A stretch of 64,000 nucleotides of DNA from Streptomyces vietnamensis. Lineage in GTDB: Bacteria > Actinomycetota > Actinomycetes > Streptomycetales > Streptomycetaceae. Numbering within the stretch: the stretch's first letter is position 1; each line of letters starts with the position of its first letter. This document shows positions 17,489-24,184 of this stretch, in pieces. The position numbers and the translations under genes were made by a program. Location: the NCBI RefSeq assembly GCF_000830005.1, contig NZ_CP010407.1, forward strand, positions 6,212,001 to 6,276,000, written 5' to 3'. Below the pieces are notes generated by a model that was not told the origin of the DNA, did not search any database, and was given only the letters and a program-made list of their open reading frames with translations.

Positions 17489-17814
17489 TCGTGATCCCCC
17501 TGGGACTACGTCAACTGGTGCATGGTGCATGGGCGAACAGCGGCCGGGCCCTCGCGGACACGACCGACGGCCCCCACTATGCCGGTGCCGGAGGGGACGG
17601 TACGCGCCCCGTCCACGGTTCCGGGCACCGTTCGGTCGTTGCCGTGCCGTGATCCGGGACACGCCAAGTTCCTGTCTCCCGGCCCGTGATCCCCGGCAGT
17701 TCCCGTCGTTGGTACGTACGGGGGACACGACGGTGGCGTGCGGGACGGCCCTTGCGGCGGCCCCACGGCGCCCCGATGTGCAACGCAACTGTTACCGCGG
17801 GAGGACACCGAGCC
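17489..17814. promoter_or_regulatory. Divergent regulatory region before the NIS-type operon
   Basis: A 326-base gap between the protease pair and the aminotransferase gene; it should hold promoters for both directions. I searched by eye for a DmdR1/IdeR iron box (TTAGGTTAGGCTAACCTAA type) and a Zur box and found neither. A GTGCATGGTGCATGG direct repeat (17518-17532) and GGTCGTTG/CGTTGGTAC fragments are present but not interpretable. Which regulator acts here is unknown. Confidence 0.35.
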
Positions 17815-19260
17815 GTGGCCGTGACCGAATCAGCTCCGGCCGTTCCACCGGCCGCGCGCACGCAGACCCGGCCGACGGACCGAGGGGGCGAGCACGAGGG
17901 CATTTTGCGCCGGCAGTCCCAGCGCGAGTCCGCCGCACGCACCTACGCCCGCTCCCTGCCGATCGTCCCCGTACGGGCCCGGGGGCTGACCATCGAGGGC
18001 GCCGACGGCCGCCGCTACCTGGACTGTCTGTCCGGTGCCGGGACACTCGCCCTCGGCCACAACCACCCCGTGGTCCTGGAAGCCATCAGGAAGGTCCTCG
18101 ACTCGGGGGCTCCCCTCCACGTCCTCGACCTCGCCACCCCCGTCAAGGACGCCTTCACCTCCGAACTGTTCGCCACCCTTCCCGGCGAACTCGCCGACGA
18201 CGCCCGCATCCAGTTCTGCGGTCCGGCGGGCACGGACGCCGTCGAGGCGGCCCTCAAGCTCGTCCGGACGGCCACCGGCCGGAGCGGGCTCCTCGCCTTC
18301 ACCGGCGCCTACCACGGCATGACGGCCGGAGCCCTCGAAGCCTCCGGAGGAGCCGCCGACGTCCGCGTGACCCGGCTGCCCTACCCGCAGCAGTACCGCT
18401 GCCCCTTCGGCGTCGGCGGCGAACGCGGCGCCGAACTGGCCGCCCGCTGGACCGAGAACCTCCTCGACGACCCCAAGAGCGGCGTCACCACCCCCGCCGG
18501 AATGATCGTCGAGGCCGTCCAGGGCGAGGGCGGGGTCATCCCCGCGCCCGACGACTGGATGCGCCGGATGCGCCGGATCACCGCCGACCGCTCCGTCCCG
18601 CTGATCGTCGACGAGGTCCAGACCGGCGTCGGCCGCACCGGCGCCTTCTGGGCCGTCGAGCACAGCGGCGTCGTGCCCGACGTCATGGTCCTCTCCAAGG
18701 CCATCGGCGGCTCCCTCCCGCTCGCGGTCATCGTCTACCGGTCGGAGCTCGACGCCTGGGAACCCGGCGCCCACGCCGGCACCTTCCGCGGCAACCAGCT
18801 AGCCATGGCCGCCGGCACGGCCACCCTCGCCTACGTCCGCGAGAACAAGCTCGCCGAACGGGCCGGCACCCTCGGCGCCCGTATCCTCGGCCGGCTCCAG
18901 GGCCTCGCCGCCGCCCACCCCTGCGTCGGCGACGTCCGCGGCCGAGGCCTGATGATCGGCGTCGAACTCGTCGATCCCGACGCGGCCGGACCGGACGACC
19001 CCGTCCCGCCGCCCGCCCCCGCCCTGGCCCTCGCCGTCCAGCAGGAGTGCCTCGCCCGCGGACTCATCGTCGAACTCGGCGGCCGCCACTCGGCGGTGGT
19101 CCGGCTCCTGCCTCCGCTCACCCTCACCGACGAGCAGGCCAACGCCGTCCTGGACCGCTTCGCCGACGCCCTGGCCGCGGCCGAACGGGCCCACACCCCC
19201 CACCCGCCCGCCTCCCGCCGGGCCACGGCCCCCCGGAACGCCTCCGGACCGTCCCACTGA
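17815..19260 (+). CDS. Diaminobutyrate--2-oxoglutarate transaminase family protein
   Basis: A 481-residue class III PLP aminotransferase, first gene of the NIS-type operon. It has the fold-type I landmarks FCGPAGTDAVEAALK, FTGAYHGMT, IVEAVQGEGG, LIVDEVQTGVGRTG and the PLP lysine in VLSKAIGGSLPL. Relatives make L-2,4-diaminobutyrate from aspartate semialdehyde and glutamate for ectoine or siderophores; no ectoine genes are nearby, so a siderophore-type role is inferred. GTG 17815 is set by GGAGG at 17799-17803. An Ala/Pro/Arg-rich tail follows residue ~460. The next gene starts 37 bases after the stop. Confidence 0.85.
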   Translation: MAVTESAPAVPPAARTQTRPTDRGGEHEGILRRQSQRESAARTYARSLPIVPVRARGLTIEGADGRRYLDCLSGAGTLALGHNHPVVLEAIRKVLDSGAPLHVLDLATPVKDAFTSELFATLPGELADDARIQFCGPAGTDAVEAALKLVRTATGRSGLLAFTGAYHGMTAGALEASGGAADVRVTRLPYPQQYRCPFGVGGERGAELAARWTENLLDDPKSGVTTPAGMIVEAVQGEGGVIPAPDDWMRRMRRITADRSVPLIVDEVQTGVGRTGAFWAVEHSGVVPDVMVLSKAIGGSLPLAVIVYRSELDAWEPGAHAGTFRGNQLAMAAGTATLAYVRENKLAERAGTLGARILGRLQGLAAAHPCVGDVRGRGLMIGVELVDPDAAGPDDPVPPPAPALALAVQQECLARGLIVELGGRHSAVVRLLPPLTLTDEQANAVLDRFADALAAAERAHTPHPPASRRATAPRNASGPSH

Positions 19261-19297
19261 CCCGGACCGCCCCGGCCCCACCCCCAAGGAAGCCCCC

Positions 19298-21574
19298 GTG
19301 AACGCCACCCCCACCTCCCCGACCCCCACCACCGAACCACCCCACCCCACCAACCCCTTCCCCTCCGAGGCCCTCCACCCCGAGCCCTCCCACACCGAGG
19401 CCCTCCGCCCTGCATCCCCCTACGCCGAGGCCCTCCCTCCTGCGTCCCTCCACGCCGAGGCCCTCCCTCCTGCGTCCCTCCACGCCGAGGCCCTCCGCCC
19501 CACGGCCCCTCACCCCGCGGCTCTCCAGCCGGAGGCCCTCCGCCCGGAGGCCCTCCACCTCGAAGTCCTGGGCTCCGAGGTCCTCCGCCTTGCGGCCCTC
19601 CAGGCCGAGGCCCTTCACCCCGAGCGCCGGCGCGCCCAGCAGCTCGGCCCGGACCCGCTCCGCCCCCAGGAGTTCGGCCCGGAGATGCTCCGCCCCCAGG
19701 AGTTCGGCTCGGAGACGCTCCGCCCCCAGGAGTTCGGCTCGGAGACGCTCCAAGCCCAGCCGCTCGGCCCGGACCCGTTCGGCTCCGAGGAGCCCACCGT
19801 CCCGCGCCAGCACGCCGGACCGTACGAACCCCGGACCCCCCGCCCGGCCGACACCCCCGACCCGCTGGACGACCCCGACCCGCGGCGTGCCGCCGACGCC
19901 GCCGCAGTCGAGAACCTCCTCCGCTGCTGGGTCCGGGAGAAGAACCTCCCGGCCCCCGGATCCACCACCCTGCGCATCCCCCTCGACGCCAGCGGCACCG
20001 CCCTCCTCGTCCCCGTCCGCTACTGGTCGCCCACCGGCTGGCACCGCTTCGGCGCCCCCGCCCTCGAAGGGCTCCCGGCCTCGGCGCCGGCCGCCGACGC
20101 CGTCACGGTGGCCGCCCTGCTCAGCCGAGAGACCGGCCGCTCCGAGGGCACCGACCTCGTCGGCCGCGTCGCCGACTCAGCCCGCCGCACCGCCGACTTC
20201 CTCACCGAGCGCCGCCGCCGGCCGCAACCGCACCCGGACGCCGACCTCTTCCTCGCCGCCGAACAGTCCCTGCTGCTCGGCCACCCGCTCCACCCCACCC
20301 CCAAGAGCCGCGAAGGGCTCTCCGAGGCCGAGAGCCGGCTCTACTCACCCGAACTCCACGGCTCCTTCCCCCTCCACTGGATCGCCGTCGACCACACCCT
20401 CCTGGCCGGCGACTCCGCCTGGACCGAACAGGGCCGGCCCGTCACCGCCGAACAGCTCGTCTCCGGTCTCGCCGAAGGACTCGCGTCGCCCGCCGGCACC
20501 GCGCCCCTGCCACTGCACCCCTGGCAGGCCCGCGAACTCCTGCACCGCCCCGACGTCCGCGCCCTCCTGGACGCCGGCCTTCTCCACGACCTCGGCCTGC
20601 ACGGCAGCCCCTGGCACCCCACCTCCTCCGTCCGCACCGTGCACCGACCCGGCGCCCGGGCCATGCTCAAGCTCTCCCTCGGCCTGCGCATCACCAACTC
20701 CCGCCGCGAGAACCTCCGCAAGGAACTCCACCGAGGCGTCGAGGTCCACCGGCTGCTCCGCACCGGCCTCGTCGACGAGTGGCAGGCAGCCCACCCGAGC
20801 TTCGACATCGTCCGCGACCCCGCCTGGCTCGCCGTCGACGCCCCGGACGGCACCCCCGTCCCGGGCCTCGACGTCATGATCCGCCACAACCCCTTCGGGC
20901 CCGGCGACGACGCCGTCTGCATCGCCTCCCTCACGGCACCCCGCCCCTGGCCCGGAGCCACCACCATGCGCTCCCGGCTCGCCGACGTCATCGGCCGGCT
21001 CGCCGCCCGCACGGGCCGCCCCACGACCGCCGTCGCCGCCGAGTGGTTCCTCCGCTACCTCGACCAGGTCGTCCGCCCCGTCCTCTGGCTCGACGGCCAC
21101 GCCGGCATCGCCCTGGAGGCCCACCAGCAGAACACCCTGGTCCTCCTGGACCCGGACGGCTGGCCGATCGGCGGCCGCTACCGCGACAACCAGGGCTACT
21201 ACTTCCGCGAGTCCCACCGGGGCGAGCTGGAGAGCCGCCTCCCCGGCATCGGCGCCGACAGCGACACCTTCGTCTCCGACCAGGTCACCGACGAGCGCTT
21301 CGCCTACTACCTCGGCATCAACAACGTCCTCGGTCTGATCGGCGCCTTCGGCGCCCAGCGCCTCGCCGACGAACGCGTCCTGCTCGCCGCCTTCCGCAGC
21401 TTCCTCACCTCCGCCACCAGCCTGGGATCACCCCTTCCGCACCGGCTCCTGGAAGCCGCGACCCTGCGCAGCAAGGCCAATCTCCTCACCCGCCTGCACG
21501 GCCTGGACGAGCTCGTCGGGCCCGTCGACACCCAGTCCGTCTACGTCACCGTCACCAACCCCCTCCGCACCTGA
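19298..21574 (+). CDS. IucA/IucC-family NIS synthetase with repeat N-terminal extension
   Basis: A 758-residue NRPS-independent siderophore (NIS) synthetase: it would adenylate a carboxylate such as citrate and form an amide with an amine. The catalytic part starts near residue 195. Family marks are PLPLHPWQAREL, TSSVRTV, MLKLSLGLRITNSRREN, HQQNTLVLLD and RYRDNQGYYF. Normal size is ~570-620; the extra N-terminal ~195 residues are a Pro/Glu/Leu-rich extension. It is built from 10-residue repeats of two kinds (HAEALPPASL-like at ~24-110, LRPQEFGSET-like at ~121-160). GTG 19298 has AAGGAAG upstream; an internal start after the repeats cannot be excluded. Codon structure through the repeats is normal. 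Confidence 0.88.
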   Translation: MNATPTSPTPTTEPPHPTNPFPSEALHPEPSHTEALRPASPYAEALPPASLHAEALPPASLHAEALRPTAPHPAALQPEALRPEALHLEVLGSEVLRLAALQAEALHPERRRAQQLGPDPLRPQEFGPEMLRPQEFGSETLRPQEFGSETLQAQPLGPDPFGSEEPTVPRQHAGPYEPRTPRPADTPDPLDDPDPRRAADAAAVENLLRCWVREKNLPAPGSTTLRIPLDASGTALLVPVRYWSPTGWHRFGAPALEGLPASAPAADAVTVAALLSRETGRSEGTDLVGRVADSARRTADFLTERRRRPQPHPDADLFLAAEQSLLLGHPLHPTPKSREGLSEAESRLYSPELHGSFPLHWIAVDHTLLAGDSAWTEQGRPVTAEQLVSGLAEGLASPAGTAPLPLHPWQARELLHRPDVRALLDAGLLHDLGLHGSPWHPTSSVRTVHRPGARAMLKLSLGLRITNSRRENLRKELHRGVEVHRLLRTGLVDEWQAAHPSFDIVRDPAWLAVDAPDGTPVPGLDVMIRHNPFGPGDDAVCIASLTAPRPWPGATTMRSRLADVIGRLAARTGRPTTAVAAEWFLRYLDQVVRPVLWLDGHAGIALEAHQQNTLVLLDPDGWPIGGRYRDNQGYYFRESHRGELESRLPGIGADSDTFVSDQVTDERFAYYLGINNVLGLIGAFGAQRLADERVLLAAFRSFLTSATSLGSPLPHRLLEAATLRSKANLLTRLHGLDELVGPVDTQSVYVTVTNPLRT
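19424..19483. repeat. Intragenic 30-bp tandem duplication (HAEALPPASL-type)
   Basis: Two perfect adjacent 30-base units (19424-19453, 19454-19483), each beginning GCCGAGGCCCTCCCTCCTGC, embedded in a longer run of diverged copies (~19369-19620). The unit encodes ten residues, so expansion keeps frame. Confidence 0.92.
19657..19746. repeat. Intragenic 30-bp tandem repeat (LRPQEFGSET-type), three copies
   Basis: Three near-identical 30-base units starting GCTCCGCCCCCAGGAGTTCG; copies two and three are identical and copy one differs at a few bases. A fourth, decayed copy follows. Confidence 0.93.
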
Positions 21575-21632
21575 ACCCCTTGGCGGCGCCCCGCGCCCAC
21601 CCCGCCCGCACCGCCGAGAGGAGAGCGACACC

Positions 21633-22289
21633 GTGTCACCCACCCGCCCACCGGCCGACCCGCCCGGGGACGACACCCTGGACCTGAGGGTCGACGACCT
21701 CGTCGCCCTCCTCGACGGCGATCTGCTGGACTCCGTCGCCGCCTGGGGGCCGGCCGACACCCCCGCGGGCTCCTTCCGGCTCGTACCCGTGCGACTCGAA
21801 CGGGACCTGCCGCTGCTCACCCGATGGATGAACGACCCCGCCGTCGCCGCCTTCTGGGAGCTCGCCGGACCCGACACCGTCACCGCCGAGCACGTCCGCG
21901 CCCAACTGGAGGGCGACGGCCGGAGCGTCCCCTGCCTCGGCGTCCTCGACGGCACGCCCATGAGCTACTTCGAGATCTACCGCGCCGACCTCGATCCGCT
22001 CGCCCGGCACTACCCGGCGCTTCCCCACGACACGGGTATCCACCTGCTGATCGGCGGCGTCACCGACCGGGGCCGCGGCGTCGGCACCACGCTCCTGCGC
22101 GCCGTCGCCGATCTGGTCCTCGACCACCGTCCCCGCTGCACCCGCGTCCTCGCCGAACCCGACATCCGTAACACCCCCTCCGTCTCCGCTTTCCTCAGCG
22201 GCGGCTTCCGCTTCGCGGCGGAAGTCGACCTCCCCGACAAAAGAGCCGCGCTCATGATCCGTGACCGGGCCCTTCGTCACGTTCTGTGA
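21633..22289 (+). CDS. GNAT acetyltransferase of the siderophore (IucB/AlcB-like) type
   Basis: A 218-residue acyl-CoA N-acyltransferase lying between two NIS synthetases. The second half has RHYPALPHDTGIHLLIG, GRGVGTTLL (acetyl-CoA pyrophosphate loop) and AEPDIRNTPS, like enzymes that acylate hydroxylamines in aerobactin and alcaligin pathways. The start is GTG 21633 with GAGAGGAGAG at 21615-21624. If it acts like IucB it would need an N-hydroxy amine, yet no N-hydroxylase is seen in this operon. It may use a free amine or a product made elsewhere. The stop lies 60 bases before the chosen start of the second synthetase. Confidence 0.8.
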   Translation: MSPTRPPADPPGDDTLDLRVDDLVALLDGDLLDSVAAWGPADTPAGSFRLVPVRLERDLPLLTRWMNDPAVAAFWELAGPDTVTAEHVRAQLEGDGRSVPCLGVLDGTPMSYFEIYRADLDPLARHYPALPHDTGIHLLIGGVTDRGRGVGTTLLRAVADLVLDHRPRCTRVLAEPDIRNTPSVSAFLSGGFRFAAEVDLPDKRAALMIRDRALRHVL

Positions 22290-22348
22290 ACACCCCTGCC
22301 TTGCCAACGCCGCTCCACCCACAGCGGTTCCCACCCCGAGGAGTCCTC

Positions 22349-24184
22349 GTGTCGACATCCCCTGCACCTCACGACTCCGCACGACCCGCCCCAGCTCCCA
22401 CCACCGGAGCCGACCCGGCGCCCGAACTGCTCGCGCCCCCCGAGCTGAACGCCACCGCCTGGACCCGGGCGTCCTCCCGCCTCCTCGAAAAGGCCCTCTC
22501 CGAGTTCGCCTACGAGGAGATCGTCGAACCCGTCCCCCTGGACGACGGCGAGCCCGACCGTCATGCACTGCGGCTCGACGACGGCACCACGCTCACCTTC
22601 CGTGCCCGCCGCGGTGCCTACGGCAGCTGGCGCGTCACCGCCGGCTCCGTCACCCACGAGGGCCGCCCCCTCACCGACCCCTTCGACTTCCTGGTCCGCG
22701 CCCGCCGCCTCCTCCGGCTCGACGGCGCCACCCTCGGCCATCTGATCCGCGAGCTCTCCGCCACCCTGGCCGCCGACGCCCGCCTCGACCACACCGCCCT
22801 CCCCGCCGCCCGCCTTGCCGAGCTCTCCTACGCGGAACTCGAAGGCCACCAGACCGGCCACCCCTGGCTGGTCCTCAACAAGGGACGCGTCGGCTTCTCC
22901 GCCACCGACGCCGCCCGCTGGGCCCCCGAGGCCCGCCGCGCCACCCGGCTGCCGTGGATCGCCGTCAGCAACCGCATCGCCGCCTACCGGGGCGTGCCGG
23001 GCCTCGACACCCCCGACCGGCTCTACGCCCGGGAACTCGACCCCGAGGTGCACGCCGCCTTCCGCGCCGCACTGACCGCCCGCGGCCACGAACCCGACGG
23101 CTACCTCCTGCTGCCCGTGCACCCCTGGCAGTGGGACGAGATCCTGCTGCCGCTCTACGCCCCGGCCATCGCCGCCGGGACCGTCGTCCCGCTCCCCGCC
23201 GACGGCGACCTCCGTCTGCCGCAGCAGTCCGTCCGTACCTTCCTCAACACCAGCCGCCCCGACCGGCACACCGTGAAGCTGCCGCTGTCGGTCCTCAACA
23301 CCCTCGTCTGGCGCGGACTGCCCACCGAGCGGACCCTCGCCGCGCCCGCCGTGACCGCCTGGGTCCACGGTCTGCGCGAGGCCGACCCGTTCCTGCGGGA
23401 CGAGTGCGGGGTGATCCTCCTCGGCGAGGTCGCCTCCGTCACGGTCGAGCACCCGCTGTACGACCGGCTGCCCGAAGTGCCGTACCAGTACAAGGAACTG
23501 CTCGGCGCGATCTGGCGCGAGCCGCTGAAACTGCCCCCGGGCGAGCGGGCCCGCACCCTCGCCTCCCTCCTGCACACCGATCCGGACGGCCGGGCGTTCG
23601 TCGCCGAGCTCGTCGAGCGCTCCGGGCTCGCCCCCGCCGTCTGGCTCCAGCACCTCTTCACCGCTCTGCTCCCCCCGTTGCTGCACTTCCTCTACCGGTA
23701 CGGCACGGTCTTCTCGCCCCACGGCGAGAACGCCATCGTCGTGTACGACGGCGACGACGTCCCCGTGCGCCTGGCGATCAAGGACTTCGTCGACGATGTG
23801 AACATCTGTGCCCAGCCCCTTCCCGAACACGCCACCCTCCCGGATGACGTCCGCGCCGTCCTGTTGACGGAGGAGCCCGGATTCCTGATCCAGTTCATCC
23901 ACTCGGGGCTCTTCGTCGGTGTCTTCCGCTACCTGGCGCCGCTCTGCGAGGAACAACTCGGCGTGTCCGAAGAGGACTTCTGGAGCCTCGTCCGCGCGGA
24001 GATCCTGCGGCACCAGGCGCGCTTCCCCGAGCTGAAGGAACGGTTCGAGCTCTTCGACCTCCTGACCCCGCGCATCGAGCGGCTCTGTCTCAACCGCAAC
24101 CGTCTGCACCTGGACGGCTACCGGGACCGGCCCGAGCGTCCGCACGCGGCCGTTCACGGAACCGTCCCCAATCCGCTCGCGTGA
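22349..24184 (+). CDS. IucA/IucC-family NIS synthetase, second copy
   Basis: A 611-residue NIS synthetase ending the operon. Family marks are PWLVLNKGRVGFS, LLLPVHPWQWDEI, PQQSVRTFLN, VKLPLSVLNTL, SPHGENAIVVYD and IKDFVDDVN; a ferric-iron-reductase-like FhuF C-terminal region covers the last ~170 residues, as usual in this family. GTG 22349 is preceded by GAGGAG at 22338-22343; an upstream GTG at 22286 would overlap the GNAT stop (GTGA) but has no clear ribosome site. The HGEN motif here versus HQQN in the first copy indicates different sub-types, so the two probably make different bonds. Confidence 0.88.
   Translation: MSTSPAPHDSARPAPAPTTGADPAPELLAPPELNATAWTRASSRLLEKALSEFAYEEIVEPVPLDDGEPDRHALRLDDGTTLTFRARRGAYGSWRVTAGSVTHEGRPLTDPFDFLVRARRLLRLDGATLGHLIRELSATLAADARLDHTALPAARLAELSYAELEGHQTGHPWLVLNKGRVGFSATDAARWAPEARRATRLPWIAVSNRIAAYRGVPGLDTPDRLYARELDPEVHAAFRAALTARGHEPDGYLLLPVHPWQWDEILLPLYAPAIAAGTVVPLPADGDLRLPQQSVRTFLNTSRPDRHTVKLPLSVLNTLVWRGLPTERTLAAPAVTAWVHGLREADPFLRDECGVILLGEVASVTVEHPLYDRLPEVPYQYKELLGAIWREPLKLPPGERARTLASLLHTDPDGRAFVAELVERSGLAPAVWLQHLFTALLPPLLHFLYRYGTVFSPHGENAIVVYDGDDVPVRLAIKDFVDDVNICAQPLPEHATLPDDVRAVLLTEEPGFLIQFIHSGLFVGVFRYLAPLCEEQLGVSEEDFWSLVRAEILRHQARFPELKERFELFDLLTPRIERLCLNRNRLHLDGYRDRPERPHAAVHGTVPNPLA

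Follow-up and report, generated by a model that had tools for sequence, protein, structure and literature searches.

A candidate schizokinen-type siderophore pathway of Streptomyces split between a conserved NIS operon and an unlinked decarboxylase-hydroxylase gene pair

Results

Six enzyme families at two loci

Four intact genes, all on the forward strand and separated by gaps of only 37-59 nt, form a compact operon in the 64,000-nt stretch of the Streptomyces vietnamensis chromosome analysed here (the window, C1:6212001-6276000 of the 9.15-Mb genome G000). They encode an aminotransferase, two NRPS-independent siderophore (NIS) synthetases and, between these, a GNAT N-acyltransferase. About 4 Mb away, a decarboxylase gene (DC2) and an N-hydroxylase gene (NMO2) lie side by side, so that six intact enzyme families are present in one genome (Table 1). 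We propose that the operon is probably one part of a rhizobactin/schizokinen-type pathway that is split over these two unlinked loci.

Table 1. Features of the two loci, with protein identities to the rhizobactin 1021 enzymes
Feature	Position	Strand	Remarks
ECF-type promoter-like element	17685..17712	+	CGTGAT-N16-CGTTGG, then conserved GTACGTACGGGGGA to ~17725; conserved in genus upstreams
Diaminobutyrate--2-oxoglutarate aminotransferase	17815..19260	+	RhbA-like, 55%; class-III family; pyridoxal phosphate-lysine motif LSKAIGG
Type-A NIS synthetase	19298..21574	+	RhbC/IucA-like, 40%; IucA_IucC + FhuF; motifs
GNAT N-acyltransferase	21633..22289	+	RhbD/MbtK-like, 38% to RhbD; Acetyltransf_8, PF13523
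Type-C NIS synthetase	22349..24184	+	RhbF/DesD/AlcC-like, 40% to RhbF; IucA_IucC + FhuF; motifs
DC2 decarboxylase	C1:2201097-2202689	-	PF00282; 42% to RhbB
NMO2 N-hydroxylase	C1:2199688-2201097	-	PF13434; 41% to RhbE

The original prediction, which was made from the letters of the window, had read the operon as aminotransferase, NIS synthetase, GNAT and NIS synthetase, and Pfam, NCBIfam and PDB matches confirm these identities. By PDB sequence match the second gene is closest to IucA, and thus of type A, while the fourth is closest to DesD, AlcC and IucC, and thus of type C; both retain their conserved motifs. The start of the type-C gene was picked from its Shine-Dalgarno sequence, the open reading frame (ORF) list having 22286. 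The proposed origin of the building block in diaminobutyrate is also supported, as the aminotransferase resembles RhbA and exceeds, if barely, the NCBIfam cut-off of subfamily NF005393 (673.6 vs 671 bits). Genome-wide family searches agree, too, that neither a Lys/Orn N-oxygenase nor a PF00282 decarboxylase lies inside the window. The conclusion drawn from that absence, a carboxylate- or amide-type metabolite that might not even chelate iron, is unsupported, because a candidate pair is encoded back to back elsewhere; the operon would thus look incomplete in its neighbourhood because two of its enzymes lie at another place.

The scan for unlinked hydroxylases, which had been suggested as a check, found four full-length Lys/Orn N-oxygenases in the genome, together with three sizeable PF00282 decarboxylases and one fragment. 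The two families stand side by side at two places only, desA/desB and DC2/NMO2, and in the loci read, relatives of the latter pair lie inside NIS siderophore clusters outside the genus. The two ORFs of the pair share 4 nt; that of DC2 comprises 531 aa and its true start is probably further in. Scores for an amine N-hydroxylase (PF13434) were 383.7 and 379.5 bits, and NMO2 carries the motifs GIGPFNL and GSGQSG. All five IucA_IucC places in the genome are away from the pair, and a Pfam scan of its neighbours (locus L015) found no IucA_IucC domain.

Each of the six proteins has its own counterpart in the rhizobactin 1021 cluster rhbABCDEF of Sinorhizobium meliloti (annotated in NZ_CP021821.1). 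The operon keeps the order A-C-D-F and the distant pair is B-E. In contrast to the rhb cluster, B and E occupy a separate locus here and neither half has an iron box. The proposed pathway is of a known kind; what is new is its division between two loci and the missing iron box.

Co-occurrence within the genus and linkage outside it

In a first sample of 61 genomes of the genus, 57 were judged to have the operon, and DC2 was counted at a threshold of at least 60%. A split DC2 occurs in 50 of the 57 operon-bearing genomes and in none of the four without the operon (p=0.0006); the raw count was 51, but the copy of G035 lies only in a linked cluster of that genome. The association persists without G032, whose NMO2 lies at a contig edge (p=0.0035), and without seven assemblies of 300+ contigs (p=0.010).

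Outside the genus, the same enzymes are physically linked. Among 394 genomes drawn across the class, 48 non-genus genomes contain an IucA relative (E<=1e-40), and in 41 of these it is followed directly, on the same strand and across a gap below 1.6 kb, by an NMO2 relative. The remaining seven include four with only distant IucA matches (36-38%) and one (G284) with an NMO2 match of unlisted position. Thirteen non-genus linked loci were read. All five from family f19 contain aminotransferase, decarboxylase, IucA, GNAT, hydroxylase and IucC, that is, all six genes in rhb order; the seven from f18 run aminotransferase-(decarboxylase)-IucA-hydroxylase-(IucC) without an operon-type GNAT, and the one from f8 reads decarboxylase-IucA-GNAT-hydroxylase-IucC. 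NMO2 matches at E<=1e-90 extend to 97 non-genus genomes, although many of the weaker ones, which were not read, may be desB. The best four non-genus carriers of NMO2 without an IucA match (G307, G404, G449, G255) combine decarboxylase and hydroxylase with one or two type-C synthetases.

Linked NIS clusters of other Streptomyces and of other actinobacterial families (L153-L157, L159, L375-L387, L392-L395) thus overlap in enzyme content with the operon and the pair, but their genes lie in one place and many have iron boxes. None of the six in-genus linked clusters shows all six relatives, each being without the aminotransferase or the operon-type GNAT. In a tree of 35 hydroxylases, NMO2 groups with those of f18, f8 and most in-genus linked clusters (support 99/96), and in one of 28 decarboxylases DC2 stands beside those of linked clusters L155/L157 (100/100). 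The f19 hydroxylases fall outside the NMO2 group. The desferrioxamine genes desABCD share the same families of decarboxylase, hydroxylase and type-C enzyme; however, they are iron-boxed, and DC2 and NMO2 sit on other branches of the trees. We take a type-A synthetase and an aminotransferase not to belong to the desABCD gene content. A plasmid cluster of Picosynechococcus PCC 7002, presumably of synechobactin type, holds aminotransferase-family genes, one IucA/IucC protein, GNATs, a hydroxylase and an MFS gene in one run, but differs in being a single locus that includes its exporter.

No iron box at the operon

The original prediction had found no DmdR1/IdeR-type iron box upstream of the operon, and this is borne out well beyond the one genome. 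With what we take to be the DmdR1/IdeR consensus, no box at <=6 mismatches was found in the 64-kb window, whereas the same scan does find the boxes of the des cluster. Genome-wide, the pattern gave 21 rows, both strands counted, against 2 for a reversed control, and none lies in the window or near DC2-NMO2. Nor was a box present upstream of the aminotransferase gene in 34 genus loci, namely that of the window plus 33 of the 40 others that were read (the GNAT is present in 54 other genomes); the best matches there have 6-10 mismatches, like shuffled sequence. Upstream of DC2, iron-box-like sites at <=5 mismatches occur in 3 of 40 loci, one of them a paralogue. Linked relatives behave differently: the six in-genus linked clusters and the decarboxylase-hydroxylase pairs L158 and L160 all have a box with 0-3 mismatches (8/8), six at no more than 0.3 kb from the first gene detected and two (L154, L156) ~1.4-1.5 kb upstream. 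Among the non-genus linked loci, 8 of 13 tested, a set that does not include L392-L395, have a box at <=3 mismatches. A Zur-type box, with a consensus that we likewise assume, was matched with 5 mismatches in 6 of the 34 operon upstreams, compared with 1 of 34 after a single shuffling.

An ECF-type promoter-like element

Instead of an iron box, the operon upstreams share an element that resembles a promoter of the extracytoplasmic function (ECF) type. The conserved block reads CCCGTGATCC-N13-TCGTTGGTACGTACGGGGGA, and TCGTTGG with its context is found in 28 of the 34 upstreams listed. A second lineage (L056, L057, L069, L085) has CGTAAC-N16-GGTTGG at the same place. Upstream of DC2 (n=32, one per genome), TCGTTG is found in 22, mostly behind GTACC or GTTACC. 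A class motif, GTN[AC][CT]-N16/17-[CG]GTTG, which was written after reading the DC2 sequences, matches 30/34 operon upstreams (27 with C only) and 20/32 DC2 upstreams, compared with shuffle means of 0.8 (maximum 5) and 0.2, respectively; a stricter regular expression matches 12/32 DC2 upstreams. For five other genes, 0-4 of 36-40 upstreams have the motif, and the value of 4 comes from the divergent gene, with which the operon has its intergenic region in common. In the 26 genomes in which both loci were read, both motifs are present in 13, only that of the operon in 8, only that of DC2 in 2 and neither in 1, and 2 have no aminotransferase and no DC2 motif.

Across eight genomes, a pattern derived from both promoters matched 20 sites, with 2-4 in each genome, whereas its reversed form matched 5. 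It matched the operon promoter in 5 and the DC2 promoter in 6 of the eight; in G019, G057 and G005 these two promoters are the only sites. One unforeseen match is the promoter of a regulator in G002, for which NCBIfam gives only response-regulator families and which we take, from its sequence, to be BldM-like. In 75 of 80 kept named records, bldM upstreams have a GTAAC-N16-CGTTG site, which equals what we take to be the sigma-BldN consensus, CGTAAC-N16-CGTTGA, with bldM as the classical target. Several DC2 promoters share the spacer letters and -10 of the bldM promoter, and a bldM matrix scores 16/32 DC2 upstreams above the 99th percentile of shuffles.

Three further unforeseen matches (L281, L286, L288), in three genomes, precede similar surface proteins, with GTGACCC-N13-TCGTTGAA lying ~160-220 nt upstream; the one tested (L286) is an SCO1860-family, LAETG-anchored protein. 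The 21-mer of the operon promoter was unsuitable as a regulon probe, having only one site in the genome at <=3 mismatches. A second element, AAGGATCTT, stands before the operon promoter in 28/34 upstreams and was counted 32 times over 1.09 Mb of loci; it also occurs in the gap between the N-oxygenase of L017 and a deiminase-like gene.

Loss of the second synthetase and non-detection of the aminotransferase

In 20 of the 57 operon-bearing genomes the type-C gene is either absent or broken; in G024 it is reduced to its last 79 residues, between the GNAT and the helicase genes. Eighteen of the 20 were scored as having both DC2 and NMO2, or 17 if the linked decarboxylase of G035 is set aside. Type-A motifs remain in 9-11 of the 11 loci without a type-C gene and in 24-29 of 29 others, the latter, four-gene group including L072, which has no type-C gene either. 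The patterns used for the GNAT glycine motif (14/29 and 1/11) and for QSVRT of the type-C enzyme (6/28) were too narrow for the relatives. The three-gene S. coelicolor locus SCO5799-5801, with which the original prediction compared the operon, would presumably fit this form without a second synthetase. The aminotransferase, in turn, was undetected in 7 of 40 genus loci; the promoter-class motif stands upstream of the type-A gene in four of these (L058, L065, L068, L086) and was not found in L059, L060 and L072.

Discussion

From homology and genomic context we infer the joint working of the two loci, the substrate of DC2, the acyl group, the citrate core, the product and the regulator. The aminotransferase would form L-2,4-diaminobutyrate, which the unlinked DC2 would decarboxylate to 1,3-diaminopropane and the adjacent NMO2 would convert to N-hydroxydiaminopropane. 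The GNAT would then acylate this intermediate to give a hydroxamate arm, of which one would be joined to citrate by the type-A synthetase and a second by the type-C synthetase. The product is likely a citrate-diaminopropane dihydroxamate of schizokinen type. Naming candidate partner enzymes in this way would give a concrete product class to a widely conserved Streptomyces NIS operon.

Several observations weigh against this reading. Although DC2 tracks the operon, NMO2 alone does not do so significantly, either in the first sample (54/57 vs 3/4, p=0.24) or in a second sample of 40 genus genomes from the class draw, three of them common to the first (35/38 vs 1/2, p=0.19). Seven genomes of the first sample have the operon without a split DC2 (G008, G010, G028, G035, G043, G044, G050); three of these (G035, G043, G044) have a linked cluster, and three others (G008, G028, G050) are assemblies of at least 740 contigs. 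The intact split pair is also wanting in G335, G343 and G367 of the second sample, each with a second IucA and a hydroxylase beside it. Conversely, NMO2 occurs without the operon in G014, G032 and G051, and G398, outside the 61, has a decarboxylase-hydroxylase pair (59/66%) without an IucA match. DC2 itself matches RhbB no better than DesA does (42 vs 43%), and it scores 293 against the NCBIfam RhbB model, with its cut-off of 900, whereas DesA reaches 427; its proposed substrate is read from context. In addition, the decarboxylases of the complete f19 clusters join DesA rather than DC2 (98/96, on long branches), and iron-box-like sites persist upstream of DC2 in two loci (L171 with 4 mismatches, L168 with 5). 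Finally, decarboxylase-hydroxylase pairs can stand alone: in L158, L160 and L396 no NIS relative was detected over the 18-19.5 kb that were read.

The alternative that fares best concerns only the genomes without the type-C gene. In these, DesD or the type-C enzyme of a linked cluster might speculatively stand in for the second synthetase, or the product might be one-armed. It is possible, if somewhat doubtful, that such genomes make a monohydroxamate of citrate or, with DesD, a mixed product, and that the term schizokinen-type applies only to four-gene genomes such as that of the window. The frequent loss of the gene and the retention of DC2, NMO2 and type-A motifs described above speak for it, and nothing found speaks directly against it; it complements rather than contradicts the split pathway.

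DesD-like matches occur in 47 of the 61 genomes, and DesD or a linked type-C enzyme in 19 of the 20 type-C-less genomes vs 29 of the 37 others (p=0.14). These figures, and the stand-alone pairs, could be taken to mean that DC2-NMO2 supply an alternative diamine to DesC/DesD or another acceptor, independently of the operon. This is unlikely, as the split DC2 is absent from all four operon-less genomes, even though G027 and G032 have des-like matches, and NMO2-like enzymes sit with NIS synthetases in the non-genus loci read. Still somewhat harder to sustain is a diaminobutyrate-polycarboxylate without hydroxamates, possibly no iron chelator, with the unlinked pair serving another pathway: the local absence of hydroxylase and decarboxylase, the missing iron box and genomes such as G008 and G010, in which no intact split pair accompanies the operon, would suit it, but it leaves unexplained the co-occurrence of the split decarboxylase with the operon, the linkage of NIS synthetases to relatives of the pair outside the genus and the one-to-one match with rhbA-F.

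The regulatory part of the split-pathway proposal is less sure than the pathway itself. Operon expression would lie outside the control of a DmdR1/IdeR-type iron box and, in many species, an ECF-type, bldM-like promoter may drive both halves. Against this, the minus strand of 7/34 operon upstreams carries the class motif as well, and the motif is missing upstream of DC2 in G004, G006, G015, G025 and the genome of the window, where only the operon has it. The genome-wide pattern was derived from both promoters, making that test partly circular. The operon promoter differs from the bldM promoter at three core bases, with a background of ~1e-4 per position, and only 1/34 operon upstreams passes the bldM matrix. 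The promoter link between the halves is thus a lead, not a result. We tentatively entertain, with rather more doubt than confidence, that a near genus-wide citrate-hydroxamate siderophore with a split pathway has left the iron repressor, is now under the developmental sigma factor BldN or an ECF factor of like specificity, and is produced as aerial growth begins. Should the shared promoter prove real, hydroxamate production would be tied to the developmental programme and not to iron status.

Neighbouring genes and other observations

The operon is flanked by a divergent trypsin-like gene upstream and a DinG-like helicase gene downstream, found in 38/40 and 39/40 genus loci, respectively. None of the four flanking ORFs scanned is an exporter, no exporter search having been made elsewhere, and no transporter or regulator was found among the scanned flanking genes.

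Two other hydroxylases of the genome were rejected as partners. One (L016 7978-13492, at 3.857 Mb) is distant and lies in a run of amino-acid permease, FAD oxidoreductase and PNPOx-like genes; the other (L017 7562-10456, at 1.016 Mb) is also distant and is divergent from a peptidyl-arginine-deiminase-like gene. A second NIS pair (L018 7582-10999, C1:3.018 Mb) was set aside as well, its divergent IucA/IucC proteins being only 25-28% identical to RhbC/F, and no hydroxylase is among the ten genes scanned near it; it adjoins PhzF-like and phytase-like genes. At the DC2-NMO2 locus, DC2 is separated from an M1 peptidase by a multicopper oxidase and a LysR regulator (L015 11829-14867), both of which were unmatched in the 13 other loci compared. 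In the operon itself, a degenerate in-frame 15/30-bp tandem repeat (19298-19814) makes up the start of the type-A synthetase gene and encodes ~170 residues that fall outside the region aligning with the solved IucA.

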